Of a stretch of 64,000 nucleotides of DNA, positions 4,183 to 18,328 are shown in pieces. Location of the stretch: positions 186,001-250,000 of the forward strand of contig WQVD01000001.1 of the NCBI GenBank assembly GCA_009781755.1, written 5' to 3'. Positions within the stretch are counted from its first letter, which is position 1; each line of letters opens with the position of its first letter. This stretch comes from Defluviitaleaceae bacterium (GTDB taxonomy: Bacteria > Bacillota > Clostridia > Lachnospirales > WQUN01). The translations under genes and the position numbers were made by a program. Under the pieces are notes generated by a model. That model saw nothing but the letters and a program-made list of their open reading frames with translations. It was not told the origin of the DNA and ran no database searches.

Positions 4183-4249
4183 ATCACCGTGGTAACATAA
4201 ATCCGAATACGCCCCTGTTGATGTTAAAACCAGTATGAAAATGCCGTGG

Positions 4250-4660
4250 TTAATTTAATAAACCAACTTCGTCTTGCCGATCAAGATATTTTTTGATTTC
4301 ATCAAGAAATGATTCGGCTGAAATCAATTGGTTTGTTACTTCATCCTTGCTAAGGATATAGAAATCATCATAATCGCTTTCATTTCGGACTTGAAACAGG
4401 GTTTCAATTGTATTCGACATCACTTTTGGAAAAATACCTGTCTTGATAAATTCACGGCGAAAATATCCGATAACTTGCCCATGATTGCCAAAATCAACAC
4501 CCCTAAGTGCCATAACACTGCGCATGGCGTGGAATATACAATAATATGACCGATTGGCAGCGGCAAAATAATCTCCGATATTAATTAGTGCTTTTGCGGC
4601 AACAAGACATTGCTCTGCCTTGTCAAACCTATATTTTGACATGTCCTTAGCGTGCTGCAT
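4250..4660 (-). CDS. HEPN-domain protein (putative toxin of MNT/HEPN pair)
   Basis: A 136-residue helical protein with the HEPN signature R-x6-H (RSYYCIFH, about residues 52-59) within a HEPN fold (AEQCLVAAKALINIGDYFAAANRSYYCIFHAM begins and surrounds it). HEPN proteins of this type are RNases or targets of nucleotidyl transfer and act as toxins with MNT partners. Start ATG 4660 was chosen for its AAGGGG ribosome site inside the end of the MNT gene, with a 14-nt overlap. The longer frame starting at 4687 lacks such a site. Translational coupling with the MNT gene suggests the normal toxin-antitoxin balance. Toxicity is inferred from the family. Confidence 0.85.
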   Translation of the reverse strand: MQHAKDMSKYRFDKAEQCLVAAKALINIGDYFAAANRSYYCIFHAMRSVMALRGVDFGNHGQVIGYFRREFIKTGIFPKVMSNTIETLFQVRNESDYDDFYILSKDEVTNQLISAESFLDEIKKYLDRQDEVGLLN

Positions 4661-4997
4661 ATAGTTCAACCCCTTCAGAAAGAACATTGCGATAAAACGG
4701 TGAAATAGGAAGCCTACTCATAAAAAGATTTTCATCGTTCAATATCATGCTTACAATAATATCATGCTCAAGCCCCAAATCGCTTGTCATGTCGTACATT
4801 CGATGTTGGTATTCCTTTTTTTCTGCCTCGGAAACATCCGCCAACACCATGATGTCCAAGTCGGAAAATTCCCTGAAATCGCCACGAGCGTATGAACCAT
4901 AAAGAATTATTTTACGCAATTTGTCGCCCATAAGGGATTGCGTGTTGCGACGCAATACTTCTGTGACGCTGATTAGGGATGGGGAGAAATTATTCAT
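4647..4997 (-). CDS. MNT nucleotidyltransferase (putative antitoxin)
   Basis: A 116-residue minimal nucleotidyltransferase. It carries the motif GSYARG(x6)DLDIMV (about residues 34-52), the GS and DxD residues that hold the metal and nucleotide. In described MNT/HEPN pairs this enzyme AMPylates or otherwise neutralises the HEPN partner. Start ATG 4997 has GGGAGG 7 nt upstream; the longer frame from 5027 does not. It overlaps the RelB-like gene by 8 nt and the HEPN gene by 14 nt, so all three are probably one transcript. Confidence 0.87.
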   Translation of the reverse strand: MNNFSPSLISVTEVLRRNTQSLMGDKLRKIILYGSYARGDFREFSDLDIMVLADVSEAEKKEYQHRMYDMTSDLGLEHDIIVSMILNDENLFMSRLPISPFYRNVLSEGVELYAAR

Positions 4998-5217
4998 GGA
5001 ATACCTCCCGTTCATCCGATTTTGCAATTACCGCTTGCGTAACCGTATTAGATTGATATCTGACAATTTCAAATGGAAATCCACCGCGCATCAGCGATTG
5101 CCGCAAAAAAACATTAACCGCATCGGTTACAGTCAAGCCAAAGCTAGCAAACAGTTCTTCGGCATTAGTTTTTACTTCGGGTTCGATTCTCAAATTCATT
5201 ACTGCCGTCCTTGCCAT
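4990..5217 (-). CDS. RelB/DinJ-family antitoxin-like DNA-binding protein
   Basis: A 75-residue protein starting MARTAVMNLRIEPEVKTNAEELFASFGLTVTDAVNVFL. This is the ribbon-helix-helix N-terminus of RelB/DinJ antitoxins, which dimerise and repress their own operon. SD GAGGTGAT lies before ATG 5217. Normally a RelE/YafQ-type toxin follows, but here the next genes are MNT and HEPN and no RelE-like frame is seen. The protein may therefore be a borrowed repressor for the MNT/HEPN pair, or the leftover of a RelBE locus. The C-terminal part (after about residue 45) is variable in this family, so no partner can be predicted from it. Confidence 0.82.
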   Translation of the reverse strand: MARTAVMNLRIEPEVKTNAEELFASFGLTVTDAVNVFLRQSLMRGGFPFEIVRYQSNTVTQAVIAKSDEREVFHE

Positions 5218-5269
5218 AAAATCACCTCGAATAAATGGTAGCACATCGGTCATACATATGCAATACAGA

Positions 5270-5329
5270 AATAAAACCGCCCTTTCATGTAAAGATGGAT
5301 AATCCTCATCATGAAAGAGCGGCTTTATT
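5270..5329. terminator. Long hairpin terminator between TA group and 5364-6398 gene
   Basis: Arms 5270-5289 and 5310-5329 pair over about 20 bp with two mismatches (AATAAA, CCGC and CTTTCATG blocks). On the minus strand the stem ends in GGTTTTATTTC, so it most likely ends the transcript of the upstream gene (5364-6398, minus strand). Confidence 0.75.
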
Positions 5330-5363
5330 ACTTAGGAGAGTAGTATAAGGGGGTGAACTTTAT

Positions 5364-6398
5364 TTATTCATCAAAATTGATTCCAAACGAGTTATTCGCA
5401 GTATCTACAAATATAAGCACGCGTTCGCCCCATATTTGGCGGAGTGTTTCGATGGGTACGATGGTGCGGCCTCTGTCCGTGTACGGGGCAAATGCTGCAC
5501 GGTACTCCCTGTCGCCAACGGTAAAATACGGTTGACCTAAGACAAGCGTTGCATCGCCAATGATAATGGTGCGCGCCGCACTTATCCAAATAATTTCATA
5601 ACCGAATAAATCGGCAAATGACCTAAGCGGTACGCCAATAATCGGCACACCGGCTTCTGTGTACACCACCCGATGCCCCACGCCATCCAAAAATGCTACC
5701 GATGCTCCATTGACGTAGGCTGTGTTTGATGCTTCGGGTATTATTGGCAGTATGGGTGCAGGGTCGTATTCCGGGGTAGGAGTGGGTGCGGGGGTGGGTG
5801 CAGGGGTTGGCTCTGGGGTAGGTTCGGGGGTTGGCGCAGGTGCAGGTTCAGGGGTAAGCTCGGGCTCCGGGGTAGATTGCAGGGTATGCGGTGTTCCCCC
5901 TGCGGGAGGTACTCTATCTGTACGTTCCCCGGGAATTACATCCCATGCAAATCCATGGTATGGCCTCGAAGGATAAGGATCACTAAAATTCCCATGGAAT
6001 GTTCTCCTAGTATAGAGAACCCAGGAATAAGGAATCACTAAGTCGTAGCTTTGATCACTGGGTATTCTCCATCCTGCTGGTAAAAAAAGCGAAACGACAA
6101 TGTTTTCGTCAGTGTGAGGTATTATTGATAATTTATCAACAAAAAGAAAAACACCTTCTTGAGGAACATCCCAACTATCAATAGTTATTACATAATGCTG
6201 GTCGCTGTGGCGTACATGAATTAAGGCATAGTCAGGCGCTTCCGTTCGGGTAGTTACGATTACCATGAATCGCAAATCGACTGTATCTGCCTCCTCAGCC
6301 GATACGGTTGTGGCAAATGCGGTTGTCATGCTCGCCATAAGCACAAGTACCAAGGCGATGGAGAAGATTTTCCGCAAGCTGATGTGAAATTTTTTCAT
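5364..6398 (-). CDS. Secreted protein with copper-amine-oxidase N-terminal-like fold
   Basis: A 344-residue exported protein of unknown role. Start ATG 6398 has GGAGGA 9 nt upstream and gives a clear signal peptide (KKFHISLRK, then a hydrophobic run ending ATTVSA, about residue 35). An N-terminal domain of about 110 residues is not recognised. A linker of repeated PTPEP/PAPTP units (about residues 160-195) is typical of a wall-spanning stretch. The last 110 residues (ASVAFLDGVGHRVVYTEAG..VPLRSFADLFGYEIIW..RGRTIVPIETLRQIWG) match the copper-amine-oxidase N1 fold used in many Clostridia surface proteins, probably for carbohydrate or wall binding. Despite the name it needs no copper. Confidence 0.8.
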   Translation of the reverse strand: MKKFHISLRKIFSIALVLVLMASMTTAFATTVSAEEADTVDLRFMVIVTTRTEAPDYALIHVRHSDQHYVITIDSWDVPQEGVFLFVDKLSIIPHTDENIVVSLFLPAGWRIPSDQSYDLVIPYSWVLYTRRTFHGNFSDPYPSRPYHGFAWDVIPGERTDRVPPAGGTPHTLQSTPEPELTPEPAPAPTPEPTPEPTPAPTPAPTPTPEYDPAPILPIIPEASNTAYVNGASVAFLDGVGHRVVYTEAGVPIIGVPLRSFADLFGYEIIWISAARTIIIGDATLVLGQPYFTVGDREYRAAFAPYTDRGRTIVPIETLRQIWGERVLIFVDTANNSFGINFDE

Positions 6399-6486
6399 TT
6401 TCTTGTCCTCCTCAGACATAAAATAGATTGACTGTTACTTACCCCAACGACGGGGAGGGAGCACCAAACCCCGCCGCAGGGCAAGC

Positions 6487-6532
6487 AAAAAAGGTGTGCA
6501 AGGATGGCAATAACTGCCATCACCTACACACC
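6487..6532 (-). terminator. Hairpin with T-run upstream of the 5364-6398 gene
   Basis: On the minus strand GGTGTG pairs with CACACC and GATGGCA with TGCCATC, followed by six T. It lies about 90 nt before the start codon of the exported protein, so it either ends an upstream RNA from the 6540-6900 region or acts as an attenuator. Confidence 0.7.
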
Positions 6533-6641
6533 TTGAAGGCTCAAGAAAACAAGCGCAACCGCGCTGTCACTTACATCAACCAAAATAACACGAACAACGC
6601 CACTTCTTGAATCGGCCTTGATTCGGTGCTACACTATGGTT

Positions 6642-6740
6642 GCGCAGTGGCAGGCTTGGCCTGTGTGTGTTAGGTGATGTTCTGGATCCCTACACTCGCC
6701 GCTCGGTGTTGCAAGCACCTTGCGGTCACTGCATTTTTTG
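6642..6740 (+). ncRNA. Candidate structured small RNA in the 6426-6908 gap
   Basis: The 480-nt gap between two minus-strand genes has no convincing ORF. On the plus strand TTGAAT (6607-6612), 17 nt, TACACT (6630-6635) form a promoter. About 8 nt on, GCAGTG (6644-6649) pairs with CACTGC (6727-6732), which is directly followed by six T. Inside, GCAGG/CCTTGC and CTTG/CAAG continue the helix. A rod-shaped RNA of about 97 nt closed at both ends and ending in a T-run is therefore possible. It lacks the GGAAGGAAGCAGC core of SRP RNA and the motifs of tmRNA or RNase P. The opposite strand also has a promoter-like TTGCAT-N17-TAGGAT near 6750, so the strand is not certain. Confidence 0.4.
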
Positions 6741-6908
6741 TTGCTCGCAAATCCTAACACATGTGTTGTTAACATGCAACATCGCGTACAATCCCGTTTA
6801 ACACCTGCATGCGGATTTTATAATGATATTTTTCACGGCCTGCCCCCCTTTGACGTAATCGCGTTGGAACTTACCCATTGCTTTTGCTTCTTTTTTCTGG
6901 GCGATCCT

Positions 6909-7919
6909 TTACAAGACGAAGTTATTCCGGTTGGTGCGGCTTATTTCTTTTTGTTGGATGCGGTACTGCCGCCAACGAGCAGGCGTTATTGTTCCTTCTG
7001 CCAGCGCGACTTGGATGGCGCAATCGGGTTCACTTTCGTGTTGGCAATCGGAGAAGCGGCACTGCGCCACCAATTCCTCAATTTCTGCGAAATTCGCGCC
7101 GATGACTTCGTCTAGATTGCCTTCATCCAACAAACCCAATTCGCGCATGCCCGGCGTGTCCATCACCAGCGCACCTGACGGCAGCAAGAAAAGATGGCGC
7201 GATGTGGTCGTATGCTGCCCCTTGGCGGCGTCGACTTTGCGCGTTGCCTTGACGGCCATCAGGTCATATTCGGCAAGGGCGTTGAGCAAACTCGACTTCC
7301 CCACCCCCGACATGCCCATGAACACCACGGTCTTGCCGGGTTGCAAATATTGCGCCAAAGCGTCCAACCCTTGCCCCGTGTGCGAAGAAATCGCATGGAC
7401 ATTCACCCCGGGTGCGGCGGCTTCCAATTCATTTAAATATGGCGTGCAGTCATCGATCATGTCTGCTTTGGTCAACAAAATCACAGGCATGCCACCGCTG
7501 GCCCATGTTTGCGTCAAATAGCGCAAAATCCGCCCCACGTTGTAATCGCGGTTCAATGACGTGAGGATGAACACATAATCAAAATTGGCGGCCACCATTT
7601 GCTCGCGGTTGCCCTTCACATGCGCGAAGCTATGCCCCGTGCCGTCATGCCGCGAGAATTTGGTACGGCGCGGCAACACTGCCGTAATCATCGACGGGCC
7701 ACTTTCGTTATATTTAACCGCCACAAAATCGCCCACGCAGGGCAAGTCGCTGCGCACGACAGCGTCGTAGATGAACGAGCCTTTAAGTTGCGCAGTGACT
7801 TCGCCGTGGTTTGTCATGACGGTGTAATCGCCGCGTTGTTGCTCTATCACGCGCCCCGCAATACAGCCATCGGGCAACGCTTCGCTTTCTTTATATCCGT
7901 ATCGTTCAAGGCTGGTCAT
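6909..7919 (-). CDS. rsgA: Ribosome small-subunit GTPase RsgA
   Basis: A 336-residue circularly permuted GTPase that helps mature the 30S subunit. It has an N-terminal OB domain (GRVIEQQRGDYTV onward), then G4 LTKAD (about residue 150), G1 GMSGVGKSS (about 205), G3 DTPGMRE (about 255), and a C-terminal zinc knuckle with CRFSDCQH..C. The motif order is diagnostic. Start ATG 7919 overlaps the stop TGA of the upstream phosphotransferase by 1 nt. The TTG at 7922 is less likely. Coupling of rsgA to a resistance-type kinase is unusual, since it more often sits with prkC, prpC and rpe. Confidence 0.94.
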   Translation of the reverse strand: MTSLERYGYKESEALPDGCIAGRVIEQQRGDYTVMTNHGEVTAQLKGSFIYDAVVRSDLPCVGDFVAVKYNESGPSMITAVLPRRTKFSRHDGTGHSFAHVKGNREQMVAANFDYVFILTSLNRDYNVGRILRYLTQTWASGGMPVILLTKADMIDDCTPYLNELEAAAPGVNVHAISSHTGQGLDALAQYLQPGKTVVFMGMSGVGKSSLLNALAEYDLMAVKATRKVDAAKGQHTTTSRHLFLLPSGALVMDTPGMRELGLLDEGNLDEVIGANFAEIEELVAQCRFSDCQHESEPDCAIQVALAEGTITPARWRQYRIQQKEISRTNRNNFVL

Positions 7920-8923
7920 CAAATCCCGCCTTCCATTTCAAATATTTTTTGCAAGGTATCAATGTGCTGCTTTTTCAATTCGGGTGTGTCGGCATTCAAG
8001 AACCACTCGACCAGCCGATACCCGTAATGCAAAATAATCCGCTCGCGGACATATAAATTGGAAATCATGGAAATATCCGCGTATTCCAAAAATCCCCGTC
8101 GATACGCGGCCGTACATGCGTGGTAATACACCACCATGTTTTCAATATCCGCTTCATCCGCAATCAAAGATGCGATATCTTCGCCCAGATATCCCCATCC
8201 CGCCGTGTCCCAATCAATGAGCCCAATTTCTCCATCGCGGTACAAGATATTCGTCACCCAAAAATCGCGGTGGCAAAATACCAACGGCAATTTTTTTATT
8301 TGACGAAAAACCGATTCCGCGCTTTCATCCGCATCAATAATCATTTGGCACAGGTGTTTTGGGATTTCGCTTGCATCGCTTCGTACAGCATTGTGCACAA
8401 CATCCCATGATTTGTAATGATAATAGAAGTGCTCCATGGCATCGGCTACCCCCACGTTTTGGATCGCTAACAATTCCGGCGGTTGCGTAGCGTACAGTTT
8501 GCCTTGCAAACGCCCCAATTCCTCCGCCGCACGCGCATACATATCCGCCGTCAAGTCCAAACCGGACACACCGTCTATATATTCCAACCAAAGGAAATGC
8601 GCGTCGTCCCTGATTTCCGCATGATAACAAATCGGCCATCGCATAGTAGGCAAGAATAAATTGCCCAAACCGGAATGGTACAAGTCATACTCCCGCCGCC
8701 ATGAGTTGGGGTCGGCGTAGCGCTCCCATTTATTCGTGGTTTTGTGCACGAGTTGGAACGATATCCGGTCGCCTGTCTGCGTTTCTGCCATGCCTGTAAG
8801 ATGAAGTACATTTCCTACGGTACCACCTTGCAAGTCCTTGGCTTCATATTCGGCACGAGCGATGGGTTGGTTCATTTTTTTCGAGAGCACCTGTATCAGT
8901 GTTTCCAAATTAATCGTGTTCAA
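7919..8923 (-). CDS. Phosphotransferase of the APH/choline-kinase fold
   Basis: A 334-residue kinase-fold protein. The catalytic loop HRDFWVTNIL (H-x-D-x4-N) and the metal-binding IDWDTAG are both intact, so it should be active. Substrates in this family include aminoglycosides, macrolides, choline and other small alcohols; the true one cannot be told. The start is set to TTG 8923, because GGAGG lies 8 nt upstream; an ATG 69 nt earlier has no such site and falls in the attenuator hairpin. It is preceded by a 13-codon leader peptide and a hairpin, and by a chloramphenicol-kinase-like gene, which fits a drug-inducible resistance group. Confidence 0.83.
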   Translation of the reverse strand: MNTINLETLIQVLSKKMNQPIARAEYEAKDLQGGTVGNVLHLTGMAETQTGDRISFQLVHKTTNKWERYADPNSWRREYDLYHSGLGNLFLPTMRWPICYHAEIRDDAHFLWLEYIDGVSGLDLTADMYARAAEELGRLQGKLYATQPPELLAIQNVGVADAMEHFYYHYKSWDVVHNAVRSDASEIPKHLCQMIIDADESAESVFRQIKKLPLVFCHRDFWVTNILYRDGEIGLIDWDTAGWGYLGEDIASLIADEADIENMVVYYHACTAAYRRGFLEYADISMISNLYVRERIILHYGYRLVEWFLNADTPELKKQHIDTLQKIFEMEGGI

Positions 8924-8958
8924 ATTTTGTTCCTCCGAATTTTTATTTTTTGAACAAT

Positions 8959-9002
8959 ATAAAACCGCGAACGATTGCCTCGTATAAGGCATCGATTCGC
9001 GG
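8959..9002 (-). terminator. Attenuator-like hairpin before the phosphotransferase
   Basis: On the minus strand CCGCGAATCGATGCCT pairs with AGGCAATCGTTCGCGG across a 6-nt loop, with one small bulge on each side. It runs into TTTTATATTG. It stands between the 13-codon leader peptide and the kinase start, 36 nt before the start codon. Confidence 0.6.
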
Positions 9003-9059
9003 CATCAAAATAACGCGCATGTGAATGCATTTACAAAAGGATACGTTCGATTAAATAAA

Positions 9060-9101
9060 TTAATGGGCTACGGCAGCCACCCTGTCTAAAGTCTTTTTCA
9101 T
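9060..9101 (-). CDS. Leader peptide, 13 residues (MKKTLDRVAAVAH)
   Basis: ATG at 9101 is preceded by AAAAGGAG with 9-nt spacing, an excellent ribosome site. The frame closes with TAA after 13 codons. It starts 20 nt after the cpt-like gene ends and lies before a strong hairpin and the phosphotransferase. This is the layout of translation-sensing leaders of inducible resistance genes. The peptide could also be the leftover start of a decayed gene. Confidence 0.5.
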   Translation of the reverse strand: MKKTLDRVAAVAH

Positions 9102-9121
9102 ACGAACAACTCCTTTTCGAT

Positions 9122-9634
9122 TTAAATTATATTTGCAAACTTCAAAACAGCTTCGGCACACTCGGCTGCGGTTTGCTTGTGCGTATCTACAACCAAGTCA
9201 TATCCATCTTGCGGGTTTAAATCAGTCAATTGTGATTCCGCTTGTCCGATTTTGCGGTCGCCGCGTTCTTTTTCCCTTCGGCGCAATTCATCCAACGGGC
9301 ATGTTACTTGTACCATGGTAAGAGGGTAGCCACGTAATGTGTCTTGTAAATTTTTATATAAATCATATTTATATGAAGTCAAAAATACGGCATCCACCAC
9401 TACATTTTTTCCGCTGTCCGAAAATAATTTTATGTTTTGAATCATCATCATTAATGCTTGGCAGTGCGCCTCATTCCAATCTTCTTTCCAAAAACGCTTT
9501 GAACAAACATCGCAAAAAAGATCGTGCGACAACCACCAAAACCGTTCATGTATATTTTCCAATATTTCATTGGCCAATGTGGTTTTGCCTGCACTGGATA
9601 CGCCGTTAAAGAAAATGATTTTACCTTTTGTCAT
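9122..9634 (-). CDS. Chloramphenicol 3-O-phosphotransferase-like kinase
   Basis: A P-loop kinase of about 170 residues. NGVSSAGKTT is the Walker A. CPLDELRRREKERGDRKIGQAESQ and YDLVVDTHKQTAAECA match the Streptomyces CPT family, where the R-rich lid and the YDL-VDT-ECA block are typical. CPT phosphorylates chloramphenicol, but relatives act on other hydroxyl groups. The start is uncertain: ATGs at 9634, 9646 and 9664 are in frame. 9634 is preferred because it begins right before GKIIFFNG, as in the family, but no option has a strong ribosome site. It precedes the leader peptide and the APH-type gene in the same direction. Confidence 0.75.
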   Translation of the reverse strand: MTKGKIIFFNGVSSAGKTTLANEILENIHERFWWLSHDLFCDVCSKRFWKEDWNEAHCQALMMMIQNIKLFSDSGKNVVVDAVFLTSYKYDLYKNLQDTLRGYPLTMVQVTCPLDELRRREKERGDRKIGQAESQLTDLNPQDGYDLVVDTHKQTAAECAEAVLKFANII

Positions 9635-9719
9635 TATATTGTTCATCCCATCCGTGATAACCATTCCGCTTTATATTAACATTTAACCGTTGTTATTTAT
9701 TGATAAATCTCGTTTTTAA

Positions 9720-10334
9720 TTAATATTTACTGCCACATACACTGCATTCGTTTTGAAAAATAATGTATGCCCCGCAGACACCGCATCGCTGCTTGTGTAT
9801 ATCCTCGATTTTATTATCGGCATCTTGTGGAGCTTCACTTTCGGTACTCACGCTCTCAAAGAAGCCATCCTCCAACATTTTTGTATATAATTTCTGCACT
9901 ATCGCTTCTTCCAGATTTGTGTTGCTTGCTATGATTGCGAAATCGGTTACGTTTTTATTAACGACCCATTCGATTATCTTCCTGTATTTTTCCGCTTTCT
10001 TGCTTAAGTGGGATACATACAATTGCAAAATAAGCCCACCCGATACCCAAAATGCAAACAAAGCAAGCGCAGTATCATTTTGGCCTTGTAAAAATAATGC
10101 CAAGGGTATTAACGTGCCCATCACAATTTTAATAATAGCCACACGACGGAGTTTATCGCACCGGAATATCCCGCATTTTTCCTTGGCAACGCCCGACACT
10201 TTATCATACAACAAATATATTCCCGTCGGCCAAAAAACAAAGAATGAAAATATTATTTTGCCCATCGGATACGGGGCGACTTGGGTTACCATCCCATCCA
10301 TTTTTGCATGAGCTGCCGCAAATCTAAATCGCAT
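9720..10334 (-). CDS. Membrane protein with C-terminal zinc ribbon
   Basis: A 204-residue protein of unknown function. Hydrophobic segments lie at about residues 25-45, 68-85 and 90-108. A helical region of about 60 residues follows. The end holds CGVCGAYIIFQNECSVCGSKY, a CxxC-x10-CxxC zinc ribbon that often serves to bind other proteins or nucleic acid. No close family is recognised. It stands alone between the cpt-like gene and the repeat-rich gap at 10335-10563. Start at ATG 10334 is by length; no strong ribosome site decides it. Confidence 0.6.
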   Translation of the reverse strand: MRFRFAAAHAKMDGMVTQVAPYPMGKIIFSFFVFWPTGIYLLYDKVSGVAKEKCGIFRCDKLRRVAIIKIVMGTLIPLALFLQGQNDTALALFAFWVSGGLILQLYVSHLSKKAEKYRKIIEWVVNKNVTDFAIIASNTNLEEAIVQKLYTKMLEDGFFESVSTESEAPQDADNKIEDIHKQRCGVCGAYIIFQNECSVCGSKY

Positions 10335-10383
10335 GGAATCATCCTTTCATTGATGCGCGCCGAACATAAGCAATGATTAAAGG

Positions 10384-10470
10384 CAAGACCCCGGGGGCGG
10401 CCCCGGACGCCGCAAGGGAGCACAAGCGCTCCCTTGACCCTCTATGTGGCTACCGCCTCTACTCAATTGT
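10384..10470 (+). repeat. Intergenic repeat, copy C (long form)
   Basis: AAGACCCCGGGGGCGG followed by CCCCGG, then AAGGGAG..CTCCCTTGACCC, then TGGCTACCGCC and ACTCAATTG. Same segment order as copies B and D. The TAATTTAAACCGCGC that follows (10480-10494) is also conserved with copy D. It lies behind two minus-strand genes. Confidence 0.78.
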
Positions 10471-10485
10471 ATGAATCGGTAATTT

Positions 10486-10509
10486 AAACCGCGCATATCG
10501 CGCGGTTTT
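10486..10509. terminator. Hairpin behind the PatB-like gene
   Basis: A perfect 9-bp stem AAACCGCGC/GCGCGGTTT around ATATC. The T-runs are short on both strands. It belongs to the repeat module seen again at 37472 and 47411. Confidence 0.6.
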
Positions 10510-10524
10510 GGGTTTGAAATGTTT

Positions 10525-10551
10525 CAGTCGATTAGTGGCACTAATCGATTG
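10525..10551. repeat. 27-nt palindrome family, copy P2
   Basis: Left arm CAGTCGATTAG, centre TGGCA, right arm CTAATCGATTG. All arm positions pair, with one G-T pair at position 3. It differs from P3 (43266-43292) only at positions 9 and 19, which change together, and in the centre. It lies 13 nt behind the PatB-like gene. Confidence 0.8.
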
Positions 10552-10563
10552 ATTTAATTTGCA

Positions 10564-11724
10564 TTAATTTTTGATTGCATTTTCCAACCGTTGAAACGCT
10601 TCTTTTAATGTCGCTCTTGGGCAAGCGATGTTGATACGTATAAAGCCATCGCCTCCCACGCCGAATGCCTGTCCGTCGCTTAGCCATAACTTTGCCTTGT
10701 TGGTGACAAAATCGTCCAACGCGTCCGCTGTCATGGCCAACCCGCTGCAATCCAGCCATGCCAGGTACGTACCTTGTGTGTCAACCGGTTTTACGGCGGG
10801 TACGATTTTATTTAATCCGGTACGCAAATAATCAAGATTAGCCGACAAGTACGCAAGCAGGTCATTTAACCATGGCTCGCCGTGCTTATACGCTGCTTTG
10901 CACGATACCAACCCCAACAAACTCGGTGTGTGCAATCCCGAATCATTGAATGCTTGCTTAAACCGCCGATGCAACACTGCGTTAGATGCAAATATATTGG
11001 CCAATTGCAACCCGGCCAGATTAAACGTCTTGGACGGTGCGGTAGCGGTTACGGTAATATCGGCAATTTGCGGTGACAGGGTAGCGAAGGTTGTATGTTT
11101 GTGCGGTTCATACACCAAGTCCTGCCATATTTCATCGGCAATGACCGTTACACCGTGCCGCAGACAAATTTCACCCATGCGCGCCAATTCATCTTGCGTC
11201 CACACACGCCCCACCGGGTTATGCGGCGAACACAGGATAAACAGTTTCGCGTTCTGCGCCTTTGCTTCAAAGTCTTCGAAGTCAATGGTATATTGCCCGT
11301 TTTCGTACACCAGCGGATTGACCAATAATGTGCGCTTCGTGTCGCGTATTGCCAATTCGAAGGGATAATACACGGGTTGTTGAATCAACACCCCGTCCCC
11401 CACTTCGGTGAATGCACGAATCCCCACGTACAGTGCATTCACCACTCCTGGGGTGATGACCAGCCATTCGCGTTGTACGTGCCAACCAAACCGCCGCACA
11501 AACCAATCTTGCACCACATCAAAATACGCCGCGTCCGGTTCGGCATATCCGTAAACTCCGTATTCGCTGTACGCCGCCATCGCCTGCGCCACGCACGGCG
11601 GCGCGGCAAAGTCCATATCCGCCACCCACATGGGCAACACGTCCTCGGGTTTGCCGCGCGCGGCAGTATCGTACTTCATGCTGTATGTACCCTGCCGATT
11701 TAATACCTTGTCAAAATCGTGCAT
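10564..11724 (-). CDS. patB: Cystathionine beta-lyase / MalY-PatB aminotransferase family
   Basis: A 386-residue fold-type I PLP enzyme. It begins MHDFDKVLNRQGTYSMKYD, the usual PatB start. LPMWVADMDF binds substrate, CSPHNPVGRVW and ADEIWQDLVY hold the cofactor, and the PLP lysine is in APSKTFNLAGLQ (about residue 230). The family cleaves cystathionine or other cysteine conjugates to release thiol, pyruvate and ammonia, in methionine synthesis or sulfur salvage. Start ATG 11724 has GGGAG 9 nt upstream; a TTG three codons earlier is less likely. It is preceded by prmC on the same strand with a 34-nt gap. Confidence 0.9.
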   Translation of the reverse strand: MHDFDKVLNRQGTYSMKYDTAARGKPEDVLPMWVADMDFAAPPCVAQAMAAYSEYGVYGYAEPDAAYFDVVQDWFVRRFGWHVQREWLVITPGVVNALYVGIRAFTEVGDGVLIQQPVYYPFELAIRDTKRTLLVNPLVYENGQYTIDFEDFEAKAQNAKLFILCSPHNPVGRVWTQDELARMGEICLRHGVTVIADEIWQDLVYEPHKHTTFATLSPQIADITVTATAPSKTFNLAGLQLANIFASNAVLHRRFKQAFNDSGLHTPSLLGLVSCKAAYKHGEPWLNDLLAYLSANLDYLRTGLNKIVPAVKPVDTQGTYLAWLDCSGLAMTADALDDFVTNKAKLWLSDGQAFGVGGDGFIRINIACPRATLKEAFQRLENAIKN

Positions 11725-13117: not shown

Positions 13118-13211
13118 AATCTTACCTCCGGTTAATAATGAATAAACCATGGAATTTCTCTGCCAACCTTCACTTTCGGCATTAATATACCACATCTTTC
13201 AAAAAAAGCTA

Positions 13212-13240
13212 TTGCATGTCCTACGTTTTTTAATTATGAT
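13212..13240 (+). promoter_or_regulatory. Sigma-A-like promoter of the spoIIA operon
   Basis: TTGCAT (13212-13217), a 17-nt spacer and TATGAT (13235-13240). The -35 matches five of six and the -10 five of six positions. In Bacillus this operon uses sigma-H, whose AGGA(AT)T..GAAT boxes are not seen here. Confidence 0.5.
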
Positions 13241-13277
13241 ACGCGCAACTGTTAATAAATGGAAATGGAGCGTTGTC

Positions 13278-13625
13278 ATGTTACATCAAGAAATCCGCAA
13301 AAAAGTCCTCATCCTATCCCCGTCGGCAGAAATTGATGCCCACAGCACCGAGCGTCTGCGTAGCACCATCGACCACGCGTTTGAAAAATCCCCCTGTACG
13401 CATATGGTGTTTGACTTTGCCAATGTGGGTTTTATGGATTCATCAGGGATTGGACTACTCATTGGCCGGTACAAACAAGCGGAAAAACGCGGTGGTTCGG
13501 TAGCACTGGTTAACCTCAGTGCAGAAATGAAGCGTTTATACACTTTATCGGGTTTGGCCAAAATTATCGCAACCTTCCCCACCATGGACGAAGCACTGGC
13601 CCATGTGAAAGGCGGTGCACAATGA
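13278..13625 (+). CDS. spoIIAA: Anti-sigma-F factor antagonist SpoIIAA
   Basis: A 115-residue STAS-domain protein. The key site FMDSSGIGLLIG (about residues 54-65) contains the serine that SpoIIAB phosphorylates. The unphosphorylated form releases sigma-F in the forespore. Start ATG 13278 has GGAG 8 nt upstream; the frame is open further up but lacks a site. It overlaps spoIIAB by 4 nt (ATGA), so translation is coupled. Length is normal (117 in Bacillus). The usual upstream dacF is absent; the operon starts here. Confidence 0.96.
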   Translation: MLHQEIRKKVLILSPSAEIDAHSTERLRSTIDHAFEKSPCTHMVFDFANVGFMDSSGIGLLIGRYKQAEKRGGSVALVNLSAEMKRLYTLSGLAKIIATFPTMDEALAHVKGGAQ

Positions 13626-14056
13626 ACAACCGCGTCGTGTTGGAATTGGCCGGCCACACGGTCAATGTATCGTTGGCACGTGTCTTGGTGGCGGCATTTA
13701 TCGCGCCCCTTGACCCCGACATTACCGAATTAACCGACATCAAAACCGCCGTGTCCGAAGCCGTAACCAACGCCATCATCCACGGCTACGGTGAAGACGC
13801 ACGCAAAACCGTGCGCATGACATTAACATTAAACGACCGCACCCTTACCGTAGAAGTGACCGACAACGGCATCGGTATATCCGATATCCCCACCGCGCGC
13901 GAGCCGCTTTTTACCACTTTATCCGACATGGAGCGTTCGGGGCTGGGCTTTACCGTGATGGAATCATTCATGGATACGGTAGATGTCATTTCTACCCCCG
14001 GCATGGGCACAACGGTTACGCTCACCAAATCCATACACGAAGCCACCGAGGCATAG
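13622..14056 (+). CDS. spoIIAB: Anti-sigma-F factor / serine kinase SpoIIAB
   Basis: A 144-residue GHKL ATPase. The N box is EAVTNAIIHGYG (about 45-56), the G1 box DNGIGI (about 84), and RSGLGFTVMESFMD (about 108) forms the lid. SpoIIAB holds sigma-F inactive with ATP and phosphorylates SpoIIAA. Gene order spoIIAA-spoIIAB-sigF is that of all known spore formers. It ends 1 nt before the sigF start. Confidence 0.96.
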   Translation: MNNRVVLELAGHTVNVSLARVLVAAFIAPLDPDITELTDIKTAVSEAVTNAIIHGYGEDARKTVRMTLTLNDRTLTVEVTDNGIGISDIPTAREPLFTTLSDMERSGLGFTVMESFMDTVDVISTPGMGTTVTLTKSIHEATEA

Positions 14057-14057
14057 C

Positions 14058-14777
14058 ATGGTAGAAAAAAAAGCCCTCATCGCCCGCGCCCAAGACGGTG
14101 ATGAAACCGCCGTCGAGCAACTCATCCGCGAGAATAACGGATTGGTTTGGTCGGTTGTAAAAAAATTCGCCAAACGCGGATACGAACCCGATGATTTATA
14201 TCAAATCGGGTCCATCGGCTTGCTCAAATGCATCCGCAAGTTTGACTTGACCATGGACGTGCAATTTTCCACCTACGCCATCCCCATGATTATTGGCGAA
14301 ATCAAACGATTCTTGCGTGACGACGGCATCATCAAAGTCTCCCGCCCCATGAAGGAACTAGCCACCAAAGCACGTTACGCCACCGAGGCACTCACCTCAA
14401 AATTAAATCGTGCCCCCACCCTGATCGAATTGGCACAAGAACTTCACGTAGAAACAGAAGACCTCGTAGTAGCCATGGAAGCCGGCCACGAGGTCGAATC
14501 CTTATACGCCACCATCTACCAAGGTGACGGCAGCCCCATATACTTAATTGACAAAATTGCCCAAAACCGCGACAACAGCGATACCACCATTAATATACTG
14601 GCACTTAAACAGCTCATCGGCCGCCTAAAACCCAAGGAACGGCAAGTAATCTTCCTGCGTTATTTCCGCGATAAAACGCAAATGGAGGTAGCCAAAGCCA
14701 TCGGCGTATCGCAAGTGCAAGTGTCAAGGATTGAAAAACGCGTGCTGGGAATTTTAAAAGACGGGCTGAGCGATTAA
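14058..14777 (+). CDS. sigF: Sporulation sigma factor SigF
   Basis: A 239-residue group 3 sigma-70 factor for early forespore genes. Region 2 is seen in YEPDDLYQIGSIGLLKCIRKFD and FSTYAIPMIIGEIKRFLRDDG (about 40-95), region 3 in the APTLIELAQELHV stretch, and region 4 in LKPKERQVIFLRYFRDKTQMEVAKAIGVSQVQVSRIEKR (quoted in part by its ends; about 195-235). ATG 14058 was chosen over the in-frame upstream ATG because it follows the spoIIAB stop with GAGG nearby and gives the usual N-terminus. The two tRNA genes follow. Confidence 0.95.
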   Translation: MVEKKALIARAQDGDETAVEQLIRENNGLVWSVVKKFAKRGYEPDDLYQIGSIGLLKCIRKFDLTMDVQFSTYAIPMIIGEIKRFLRDDGIIKVSRPMKELATKARYATEALTSKLNRAPTLIELAQELHVETEDLVVAMEAGHEVESLYATIYQGDGSPIYLIDKIAQNRDNSDTTINILALKQLIGRLKPKERQVIFLRYFRDKTQMEVAKAIGVSQVQVSRIEKRVLGILKDGLSD

Positions 14778-15039: not shown

Positions 15040-15076
15040 CCCTCGCAATCATTACGATTGCGGGGGTATTTTTTTT
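15040..15076 (+). terminator. Terminator after tRNA-Cys
   Basis: CCCTCGCAATC (15040-15050) pairs with GATTGCGGGGG (15056-15066) over ATTAC and is followed by TATTTTTTTT. It overlaps the last codons of the oppositely oriented gene at 15052. Confidence 0.88.
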
Positions 15077-16176
15077 GTTCCCGATCTTTCGATTTCTGAC
15101 ACAGCGGGTTCGGGAGCGAGCTCGCGTTCGCCTTCCCATCCGGCGACGATGAGCATCACCAGCGTGGGGCCGATGATTAACCCCAGTAAGCCGAATAAAC
15201 GGAAGCCAATGAAGATTGACATGAGCGATAACAACGGATGCACGCCAATTTGGTCACCCAAAATTTTGGGTTGCAATACTTGCCTAGTTACGGTGATGAC
15301 ACCATAAATAATGAGCAAGCTTATTCCTTGCTGCGGATTACCTACAAAAAACGAACCGATTGCCCACGGCACCAATACCGACCCCGCCCCAACAATTGGC
15401 AAGAAATCTAATATAGCCAACAAAATACCTAAAAACAGTGCGAAGGGCGAGCGGATAATCAATAAACCGATGATGCTGATGATACCCACCATGGTCATCA
15501 AGATATACTGCGCGCGCAAATATCCGCGTATCGCATTGGAGAAACTCTTTCGCGTTTGGCGGAAGTGTTTTTTTAATGCTTCGGGGCAAGTGCGTTGTAT
15601 TGCGGCAAAAATGCGGTCTCGGTCTGCCATGAAGAAGTACGCGCTTACCAGCGACAGAATAATATTTATTAAAATATCAGGAACGGCGGTGAATACGCGT
15701 GCGCCATGGTCTTGTAAAAATCCGCCGAACAAAGTTGTAACTGCTGTTTGCAAAACTTCTTGCATATCCGGTACGGAAATATTATCGGGCAAATTTTCAG
15801 TAATGCGAATCAACCATGCGTCTGCACTATTTACAATGCCTTCAATATGACCGGGGGCATCTTCACTTCCAAGGGCCGCAGTCATAAATTCGCCACCTTG
15901 GTTCCACAAGGTACTAATCAGCCATACACCTAAACTGGCCGTTGCGGCCATGAATAGCAATAAGCACAACAAAGCCGCCATCCAACGTTTAAATTGCAAA
16001 CGATTTTGCATCAGACGTATCAGCGGCTCCATGACCAGCGCGATGATTAATCCAAAAAAGAACGGCGCCAAGTACACCCAAAGAAAGGAAAACAACGCGT
16101 ACACCATAAATGTAATAAACGCGAAAAAAGCAATGCGATCGACAATTGTTTTGTTGCGCATGTATAAATCGTACAT
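15052..16176 (-). CDS. AI-2E/PerM-family membrane transporter
   Basis: A 374-residue integral membrane protein. Two helices at about residues 12-55, one at 65-90, a large outside or inside loop (about 95-150), and four to five helices from about 155 to 355 follow the AI-2E exporter family (YtvI, YdbI, PerM) pattern. The conserved PIVGAGSVLVPWAIGSF and LGDQIGVHPLLSLMSIFIG are present. The family exports small molecules or acts in sodium-proton exchange; in spore formers the relative YtvI is linked to sporulation but with no known substrate. ATG 16176 has GGAGG 7 nt upstream. It sits between the tRNAs and the divergent MPN-LysM gene. Confidence 0.88.
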   Translation of the reverse strand: MYDLYMRNKTIVDRIAFFAFITFMVYALFSFLWVYLAPFFFGLIIALVMEPLIRLMQNRLQFKRWMAALLCLLLFMAATASLGVWLISTLWNQGGEFMTAALGSEDAPGHIEGIVNSADAWLIRITENLPDNISVPDMQEVLQTAVTTLFGGFLQDHGARVFTAVPDILINIILSLVSAYFFMADRDRIFAAIQRTCPEALKKHFRQTRKSFSNAIRGYLRAQYILMTMVGIISIIGLLIIRSPFALFLGILLAILDFLPIVGAGSVLVPWAIGSFFVGNPQQGISLLIIYGVITVTRQVLQPKILGDQIGVHPLLSLMSIFIGFRLFGLLGLIIGPTLVMLIVAGWEGERELAPEPAVSEIERSGTKKIPPQS

Positions 16177-16252
16177 TTACGTCCTCCATTTCTATCAATG
16201 CGAATGGCTCGCGAAATTTGCGATGGAATTACTTCTTTTAGCTCCTAAAATT

Positions 16253-16280: not shown

Positions 16281-16322
16281 GGCTTGCCACAAAAATAAGG
16301 CAAGCAAAGGAGCGTGGGGGGT

Positions 16323-17690
16323 ATGAGCGATTTTACATTGCCTACCAACATAAAGCAAATCGGCAGTATCAATGACGGACTGCGCGTGTATGTCGAAGAT
16401 TATGTCTGTACCTTTTTACAACAATATGCAGAAGCGGGGGGATATAGCGAGCGGCTGGCGTTTTTGGTGGGGCGCCACTTGGTGATTGACGGCGTACCCA
16501 TCGTATTCGTTAACGGAGCTATCCACGGCAAACATACCGAGGAAAGTGAAGGTTTCTTGCGTTTTTCAGAAAAATCCATTGAATATGCCGCGCAAATGTT
16601 AGATGAGCATTTTAACGGACTGGAAATCGTCGGCTGGATGCAATCACAGCCCGGATATTCTACGTTTTTAAATCAGCATTATGCGGCGTACCATTTACGG
16701 CAGTTCCGCAAGCCGTATCAAGTGATGCTGGTGAGTGATCCGTTGGAGCGGGCCAACACCTTCTTTACCATGAATCCGCACGCCCTTACCCCTACTGAAC
16801 GTCTAATGCCGTTAAACGGTTACTTTATTTATTATGACAAAAACACCGCCATGCATGAATACATGCTGGCCAATAAAGCCATGGACTATACTGCTAAGGT
16901 GCCCAATTTTATCGACATCGAACCCAATATATATGTAGACGACGAAAAAGACGCTGCATTAACGCTGCCGTTTGACAAAGACGACGATGTCTATACCGAG
17001 AGCACCCCCAGCAACGATGATGAATTGGTGGACGAAATTCTGCGCCGACCAGAGCGGTATTCTCAACAGCGTATGCAAAAAAAACCTGCCTCGTTACCCC
17101 GGCGTCCTATGCAATTATTGGGCAGCTTGGCGGCGGTGCTTTTAGTAATCGTGTTTGTCATGGGCTTCGAGTTAATGCGCAATGCCGACCGCATTGAACG
17201 CATGGAAACAGAAATCCACTATCTGACAATGGGCTACCGTAATTTGCTTTCGCAATTTCACATGGGCGCGTTGGCTCCGGCGTTTGCCGAGCAGGATTTT
17301 GTTGTTGAACCACACGCCGATGAATTGGATGACACAAACACCACGGCTTCCGACGGCGTGCATGCAGGTCAGTTGGTAACAGACAGTTACCAACTGCCAT
17401 CACCCACCGAAGCATTACCAACCGATGCCCCCCCCGCTGAAGTCTTGCCGCCCCCCACCCTGCCCCCTCCGCAAGAAACACAAGCCCCACCTCCGACCAC
17501 TGAAGCCACCCACACCGCGCTCATTGAAGTACCCCTATTACACGTCATCCAGCCGGGCGAGAGCCTTATTTCCATCAGTATCGCGTTCTTTGGTCATGGC
17601 GGGCGCGTGGCGGATATCATCGCGCTCAATGACATTATTAACCCGGATTTGATTGTAGCCGGGCAGACGATTCTTATCCCACGCAGTTAA
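16323..17690 (+). CDS. MPN-like domain, membrane helix and C-terminal LysM
   Basis: A 455-residue membrane-anchored protein. Residues 1-175 resemble the JAB/MPN (Mov34) fold: LEIVGWMQSQPGYSTFL and PYQVMLVSDPLE align with GW-HSHP and the VxDP strand of JAMM peptidases. The zinc ligands are lost (HxH is Q107-S-Q109, and the later S and D are N and Y), so it should not be a protease. An acidic region (200-240) leads to a single membrane helix at about 264-284. A Pro/Thr-rich linker (325-400) and a LysM wall-binding domain (405-455) follow. The likely arrangement is MPN inside, LysM outside. Start ATG 16323 has AAAGGAG 10 nt upstream. Palindrome P5 encodes residues 350-358 in the linker. It is next to a histidine kinase. 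Confidence 0.8.
   Translation: MSDFTLPTNIKQIGSINDGLRVYVEDYVCTFLQQYAEAGGYSERLAFLVGRHLVIDGVPIVFVNGAIHGKHTEESEGFLRFSEKSIEYAAQMLDEHFNGLEIVGWMQSQPGYSTFLNQHYAAYHLRQFRKPYQVMLVSDPLERANTFFTMNPHALTPTERLMPLNGYFIYYDKNTAMHEYMLANKAMDYTAKVPNFIDIEPNIYVDDEKDAALTLPFDKDDDVYTESTPSNDDELVDEILRRPERYSQQRMQKKPASLPRRPMQLLGSLAAVLLVIVFVMGFELMRNADRIERMETEIHYLTMGYRNLLSQFHMGALAPAFAEQDFVVEPHADELDDTNTTASDGVHAGQLVTDSYQLPSPTEALPTDAPPAEVLPPPTLPPPQETQAPPPTTEATHTALIEVPLLHVIQPGESLISISIAFFGHGGRVADIIALNDIINPDLIVAGQTILIPRS
17370..17396. repeat. 27-nt palindrome family, copy P5 (inside coding sequence)
   Basis: Left arm CAGTTGGTAAC, centre AGACA, right arm the exact reverse complement. It encodes QLVTDSYQL in the linker of the MPN-LysM protein and keeps the frame. 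It differs from P4 (43317-43343) in the centre and by a paired change at positions 9 and 19. Confidence 0.8.
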
Positions 17691-17692
17691 CC

Positions 17693-18328
17693 ATGGTGAC
17701 CGAAACCGCATTCACTAACATGACCGTAGCCCTGGCACACGAAATCAAGAATCCCGTATCGCTGGCACTGGCACATGTAGCTTTGCTGCGCACCGCAGAC
17801 AACGCAAACGAAACCGAAAACAGCCTATACCACATCGAGCGCGCCATGGAAAGCATCATTAACCTGTCACAAGAAATGTTGAGTGTAACCCGCGGCGCAC
17901 CGCTGGCATTTAATTTCGATTTATTTGATGTCTTGACCGATGTGGTGGATATGTATCGAGCCGCACGCCCCAATGCCGCGTTTCACTTGACGCCGCCGCC
18001 AACCCCATTGACCCTGCGCGCACCCGAGGTGTACCTACGTATCGTCCTGTCCAATTTAATTAAAAACGCCGTGGAAACTAATTGCCGCGATGTTTCAGTT
18101 GTGTTGGAAAAAAAAGAAGGCTGTGCATTCGTCGTCATCCGCGACAACGGACCAGGTTTTGATAACGAGTACGGCCAAATACAAAACCCCAAACCCTATG
18201 GGAACGGTTTGGGGCTGTCGATTGCGCGGTGGTTATTGGAGCGAATGGAGGGCAACTTAACACTTCGCCCGGCGCCATTGGGTGGGTGCGAAGCGGTCGT
18301 GCGCCTACCCTACACAAACATCACGTAG
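17693..18328 (+). CDS. Soluble sensor histidine kinase (HisKA-HATPase only)
   Basis: A 211-residue kinase with no sensor or membrane segment. The H box is ALAHEIKNPVSLALAHV (His at about residue 16). The ATPase part has NLIKNAVE (N box, about 117), DNGPGF (G1, about 148) and GNGLGLSIARWLLE (G2, about 166). Kinases of this minimal kind feed the Spo0 phosphorelay or sense through a partner. The gene starts 2 nt after the MPN-LysM gene, so that membrane protein could be its sensor; this is an inference. No response regulator is adjacent. The last 24 nt overlap ispH on the other strand. No strong ribosome site is seen before ATG 17693, so translation may depend on coupling. Confidence 0.85.
   Translation: MVTETAFTNMTVALAHEIKNPVSLALAHVALLRTADNANETENSLYHIERAMESIINLSQEMLSVTRGAPLAFNFDLFDVLTDVVDMYRAARPNAAFHLTPPPTPLTLRAPEVYLRIVLSNLIKNAVETNCRDVSVVLEKKEGCAFVVIRDNGPGFDNEYGQIQNPKPYGNGLGLSIARWLLERMEGNLTLRPAPLGGCEAVVRLPYTNIT

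Follow-up and report, generated by a model that had tools for sequence, protein, structure and literature searches.

Results

A predicted wall-anchored MPN protein is encoded beside a sensor-less histidine kinase

We analyzed a 64,000-nucleotide stretch of DNA from a Defluviitaleaceae bacterium (the window), in which a gene for a protein with an MPN domain, a transmembrane helix (TM) and a LysM domain (hereafter MPN-LysM) is followed, two bases past its stop codon, by the start of a histidine kinase gene at 17693. The features of the locus, in window coordinates, are as follows.

13149..14777, + strand: spoIIAA-spoIIAB-sigF operon (NCBIfam; SpoIIAB and SigF above the cut-off, SpoIIAA just under)
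15052..16176, - strand: divergent neighbor YtvI, sporulation integral membrane protein (TIGR02872, 251 bits, cut-off 198)
16209..16215, + strand: weak Spo0A-box-like site TCGCGAA, two mismatches, at -114
16323..17690, + strand: MPN-TM-LysM protein, 455 aa, a predicted wall-anchored pseudo-JAMM (CDS, Pfam, structure models)
16374..16871, + strand: MPN domain, residues 18-183 (phmmer, AlphaFold2 model, structural match, family alignment)
17103..17264, + strand: single membrane helix (about 261-286), continuing as an external helix to 314 (full-length model)
17265..17525, + strand: disordered Pro/Thr-rich stalk, residues 315-401 (pLDDT <50, full-length model)
17541..17681, + strand: LysM domain, residues 407-453 (PF01476, full-length model)
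17693..18328, + strand: sensor-less histidine kinase, 211 aa (HisKA + HATPase_c; intact H, N, G1 and G2 boxes)

A short inverted repeat, GGCTTGCC ... GGCAAGC, was also observed at 16281-16305, just 5' of the MPN-LysM ribosome-binding site.

Pfam matched LysM (PF01476) to residues 407-453 with an E value of 2e-8 (34.5 bits versus a cut-off of 20.9) and JAB (PF01398) to residues 86-124 below threshold (E 0.008). A phmmer search against the PDB aligned the QSQPG loop, weakly (E 0.02-0.1), with the HSHPG of archaeal Rpn11 and CSN5; the GW-x-S-x-PG-Y strand and loop is common to the MPN domain and the Rpn11/CSN5 JAMM. When residues 1-186 were modeled with AlphaFold2 on an alignment from 16 relatives, the model reached a pLDDT of 90.2 and a pTM of 0.88, and its top structural matches in the PDB were all MPN domains (Foldseek E 4.9e-10). 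The archaeal Rpn11 6fju matched with a Z score of 18.3 and an rmsd of 2.1 over 152 residues, and BRCC36, Rpn11 and CSN5 were among the matches around it. Because the model is of high confidence and its top matches are MPN domains, we regard the modeled MPN fold of residues 18-183 as firm and a chance likeness as ruled out. A preliminary description of this DNA had recognized an MPN pattern in the N-terminal ~175 residues, and the structure prediction bears this out.

In the full-length model, the TM (about 261-286) lies within a long helix (261-314), followed by the stalk (315-401) and a LysM fold (405-453). Since positive residues precede the TM, the MPN domain is predicted to lie inside the cell, and the single TM places LysM across the membrane from it. 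A TM span follows the MPN domain in the full-length relatives examined as well. The kinase passed the Pfam cut-off for HATPase_c and fell just under it for HisKA (25.9 bits; cut-off 26.9), and no response regulator was found beside it within the window. The proposed order of a membrane helix, a Pro-rich stalk and an external LysM thus agrees with both Pfam and the full-length model, and the kinase 2 nt away does consist of HisKA and HATPase_c only. No specific NCBIfam name was found for either protein, and the MPN-LysM protein had no match in a plasmid collection.

The MPN domain has lost the JAMM zinc site

The canonical JAMM motif, E ... H-x-H-x7-S-x2-D, reads E43 ... Q107-S108-Q109 ... N117 ... 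Y120 in the window protein. The replacement of HxH by Q-S-Q, and of the Ser and Asp, had been noted before; to this we add that the JAMM Glu, E43, is retained, a point that had gone unremarked. The window protein therefore has the fold of the JAMM/MPN+ metallo-isopeptidases and lacks their zinc site (E...HxHx7Sx2D), and a fold with its ligands lost is what defines the MPN- (inactive scaffold) class. Judged by its residues, the window MPN domain is a catalytically dead JAMM relative. In a 147-member alignment, the 60 kinase-linked members kept the first His in one case, and the second His and the Asp in none; several kinase-unlinked clades retain H-x-Q and D.

Some distant homologs outside the sampled order keep the motif. 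L115 (genome G108) has an intact HTH...S...D together with LysM in the same architecture, L121 (also G108) has an intact JAMM motif without LysM, and L114 has an almost intact motif in the same architecture. The G108 pair belongs to an operon with a YukD-like ubiquitin-like protein (Ubl), a ThiF-type E1, a UQ_con-FHA E2 and a Prok-RING_1 protein:

L122 (genome G108, C22), 4244-11347: Ubl-conjugation operon including two intact JAMM-TM proteins, one with LysM

Based on these intact relatives of like architecture, one pair of them within a Ubl/E1/E2/RING operon, the dead MPN domain probably descends from an active JAMM-TM-LysM bacterial deconjugase whose chemistry was lost in the order; the MPN tree does not firmly root this active-to-dead history. 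Among the conserved neighbors of the MPN-LysM loci examined, none was recognized as a Ubl, E1 or E2 gene, and no MPN+ neighbor was seen at the window locus. Elsewhere, L116 and L117 (genomes G185 and G100) encode degenerate MPN-TM-LysM proteins whose five JAMM positions read RGRTD and KGRSD, and both genes adjoin apparent flagellar genes.

MPN-LysM co-occurs with sporulation genes

MPN-LysM homologs were found in 36/41 near relatives and in 276/392 sampled genomes of the order (probably GTDB Lachnospirales). In a class-wide sample only 10/196 genomes had one; six of these lay outside the order, with weak matches. The relatives include termite-gut Defluviitaleaceae MAGs, Anaerotignum, Tyzzerella and Clostridium sp. 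ASF356, among others. We then used SpoIVA (spoIVA) as the sporulation marker in the 392-genome profile: 258 genomes had both proteins, 101 had neither and 33 were discordant (18 + 15), giving a Fisher p value of 1.5e-57 that ignores shared ancestry. In at least three families, f84, f8 and f5 (apparently Lachnospiraceae; f17, mentioned below, is apparently Anaerotignaceae), certain genera lack both proteins together, and other genera there keep both. Judging from the genomes, the family turns out to be confined almost only to spore-forming gut bacteria, and the profile strongly suggests that it is tied to sporulation. One f5 genome, G571, carries three matches to the MPN family (C32:11009-13430 and C1:82642), of which two are near each other on the same contig; these are possibly paralogs with another role.

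Neighboring genes fit this distribution at several loci. Besides ytvI and the spoIIA operon in the window, a divergent yyaC was found at 66/143 MPN-LysM loci in several families; yyaC belongs to the sigma-F regulon and is one of the core sporulation genes (PMC3416734). Seven loci of the f11 group have the order MPN-LysM, kinase, CYTH-like gene, spo0A, which puts spo0A two genes downstream of the MPN-kinase pair.

Spo0A-box-like sites are enriched upstream of MPN-LysM

TGTCGAA-like sites in the gene direction, with at most one mismatch, occurred at -85 to -130 in 32/143 loci from several families. Scrambled motifs at the same positions gave a mean of 6.5 and a maximum of 26, and 0/288 reached 32. 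An exact box stood at -85 to -130 in only 14/143 loci, and exact boxes were about five times denser upstream of MPN-LysM (16 in 35.8 kb) than in control intergenic DNA (5 in 61 kb). In the window, TCGCGAA stands where relatives have TGTCGAA; with its two mismatches it is not significant alone, and it is the relatives that suggest possible direct Spo0A control of the window promoter. A reverse-orientation peak of 0A boxes at -60 to -90 was left out of the Spo0A-box count, since a good share of it consists of TTGACA-like -35 elements. Consensus scans for sigma E, F, G, H and K upstream found nothing above shuffles except a loose sigma-E-like pattern (31 versus 14.4 in shuffles), and sigma A sites upstream of MPN-LysM were not above chance.

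The kinase is a frequent but not obligatory neighbor

We counted kinase linkage at 139 MPN-LysM loci with readable flanks. The kinase adjoins MPN-LysM on the same strand in 60 of them, mostly with a gap of <100 bases; this adjacency spans several families with the same gene order and falls in two main clades, the linkage label changing seven times on the MPN tree as opposed to 45 times for shuffled labels. The other 79/139 loci have no adjacent kinase, so we consider MPN-LysM to be the broader unit and the kinase its frequent partner. Among f5 loci (L198-L224), the gene downstream of MPN-LysM on the same strand often encodes a basic protein of about 180-330 aa that apparently spans the membrane; standing in the kinase's place, this protein may serve as another partner.

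When whole genomes were searched with the linked kinases as query (threshold E 1e-35), 96/392 gave matches, and 93 of these also have MPN-LysM; the three others are MAGs of 78-89% completeness. The strong matches adjoin MPN-LysM in the searched genomes. About 20 of the kinases from the 96 genomes do not, and these are also small and sensor-less; most of them lie at one conserved locus by murG and a HIT-family gene. This murG/HIT-family/small-kinase arrangement (L225-L244) recurs across several families, and its kinase is itself a candidate for a role in sporulation. It is likely that the linked and murG-linked kinases represent a single orthologous gene that moved. With a profile that included unlinked kinases, 13 of the 25 f5 MPN-LysM genomes tested were found to have a small kinase (238-283 aa, 160-214 bits). 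Hence the earlier expectation that the pair would be neighbors in relatives holds in the two main clades and fails elsewhere as a strict rule: many genomes lacking the pair carry a similar small kinase at another place, and some have none above threshold. The latter is the case for f2, f86 and most of f17, though MPN-LysM is kept there.

Among the matches listed, f84 has the small kinase in 9/9 sporulation-positive genomes and in none of nine negative ones. Likewise, 33 genomes searched that lack MPN-LysM and SpoIVA have no small kinase among the matches listed bar one, a 296-aa protein from a 68% complete MAG. That the kinase and MPN-LysM occur together is mostly accounted for by the fact that each of them tracks sporulation. 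The specificity residues of unlinked kinases, such as SLSTQL and TLSFQL, are close to those of known sporulation kinases (NISAQL, SVGLQL and TAGFQL; PMC6136694), which supports Spo0A as their putative target. Those of the linked kinases have drifted from known Spo0A kinases, and the window kinase reads SLAHAL.

Discussion

Our tentative preference, held at somewhat less than even confidence, is for a wall-anchored pseudo-JAMM scaffold or receptor that controls an orphan kinase, with the kinase in turn feeding Spo0A. The stalked LysM would hold the protein to peptidoglycan outside the cell, either anchoring it to the wall or reading the wall, and the membrane helix would link it to the MPN domain inside. 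The dead MPN domain would act as a protein-docking module, most likely recruiting or gating the sensor-less cytosolic kinase, which in turn most likely passes phosphate to Spo0A. Spo0A may raise the MPN-kinase operon, closing a positive loop at sporulation entry. The sequences establish the architecture, the lost active site, the conservation, the co-occurrence with sporulation, the kinase linkage, the nearness of spo0A in relatives and the box enrichment across the family; the MPN-kinase contact, the sensing by LysM, the transfer from kinase to Spo0A and direct Spo0A control of the window promoter are inferred. A narrower form, in which the deconjugase-derived dead domain makes up the inside portion of a wall receptor, switching the kinase directly and so gating Spo0A order-wide, seems to us rather doubtful.

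The far wider spread of MPN-LysM than of the kinase makes a structural role the strongest rival. MPN-LysM might be a wall-tethered sporulation scaffold, at the septum, in engulfment or in envelope assembly, whose MPN domain docks another sporulation protein while the kinase is merely co-operonic. It would account for MPN-LysM tracking SpoIVA much more broadly than it tracks the kinase, for the 79/139 loci with no kinase alongside and for neighbors such as yyaC and ytvI, which are post-initiation sporulation genes; the kinase linkage, the seven spo0A-linked loci and the upstream Spo0A-box-like sites point instead to early regulation, and we hold the structural role possible but doubtful. Chance adjacency of MPN-LysM and the kinase, with no functional link, could explain why the pair is missing from many loci, yet it is scarcely credible given the short gaps, the same order in 60 loci of several families and the strong kinase matches that adjoin MPN-LysM in the searched genomes.

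The kinase could also be a Spo0A phosphatase or act on another regulator, so that the pair restrains sporulation or answers general wall stress. We think this unlikely, even though the linked kinases depart from verified Spo0A kinases in their specificity residues (PMC6136694) and some clostridial orphan kinase-like proteins are sporulation-reducing phosphatases (PMC11210211). The position of spo0A two genes downstream in seven loci speaks against it, as does the absence of the small kinase, among the matches listed, where sporulation is lost, but both are compatible with a phosphatase too. Finally, the retained E43 and the distant intact-JAMM relatives in a YukD/E1/E2/RING operon might suggest a remaining, zinc-independent ability of the MPN domain to bind or cleave a ubiquitin-like protein; with all zinc ligands and the Ser replaced and freely variable, and no Ubl, E1 or E2 recognized beside the loci examined, we consider this very improbable.

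Returning to the preferred scaffold or receptor that feeds Spo0A, its interest lies in the organisms concerned. Lachnospiraceae and their relatives are major gut spore formers whose sporulation trigger is little known, and a review counts dozens of clostridial families in which Spo0A control is uncharacterized (PMC11210211). Here, an undescribed family tracks sporulation in a sample spanning the order and, depending on the genome, lies near spo0A, yyaC, ytvI or spoIIA. It could provide a bare kinase with its membrane input, and may help decide the timing of spore formation. The sporulation phenotype that the preliminary description proposed to seek in a deletion is therefore well motivated. 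The family further hints at a route by which a bacterial Ubl-system enzyme could give up catalysis and turn into a signaling scaffold, like the eukaryotic MPN- subunits.

Comparison with known systems

In line with the preliminary description, which knew of no system with this gene order, our searches (LysM with JAMM/MPN and kinase; JAB with LysM; inactive bacterial MPN), which lay mostly outside subscription papers, returned no description of the MPN-LysM protein or the pair. Each component has precedent, in inactive MPN scaffolds, in LysM proteins and in orphan sporulation kinases; as far as this search shows, a family that combines them and tracks sporulation is new.

The window protein shares the MPN fold and the JAMM Glu with the archaeal Rpn11 homolog (6fju, Caldiarchaeum) and the CSN5/Rpn11 isopeptidases; unlike them, it is bacterial, lacks the zinc ligands, Ser and Asp, is fused to a TM and LysM, and has no visible Ubl partner beside its gene. 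It resembles the inactive subunits Rpn8, CSN6, eIF3f/h and KIAA0157 in its non-catalytic MPN fold, presumably a docking module, and differs from them in being membrane- and wall-anchored and kinase-linked, with no MPN+ partner seen at the locus. The L122 JAMM-TM-LysM protein has the same MPN-TM-stalk-LysM order and falls into one family with the window protein by profile search, but keeps an intact E-HxH-S-D and has YukD-like Ubl, E1, E2-FHA and Prok-RING genes alongside.

On the kinase side, the orphan Spo0A kinases CA_C0903 and CA_C3319 and B. subtilis KinA-E likewise combine HisKA and HATPase_c with no adjacent response regulator; their sporulation-linked distribution is also alike, and the unlinked small kinases have similar specificity residues. 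The window kinase, in contrast, has 211 aa and no PAS, TM or sensor, and is encoded with a separate wall-anchored partner. In KinB with its lipoprotein KapB, and in similar kinase/accessory-receptor pairs, the kinase input is likewise a separate envelope protein. The likeness to the window pair lies in that separate envelope input; the KinB/KapB proteins have no sequence relation to it and contain neither MPN nor LysM.
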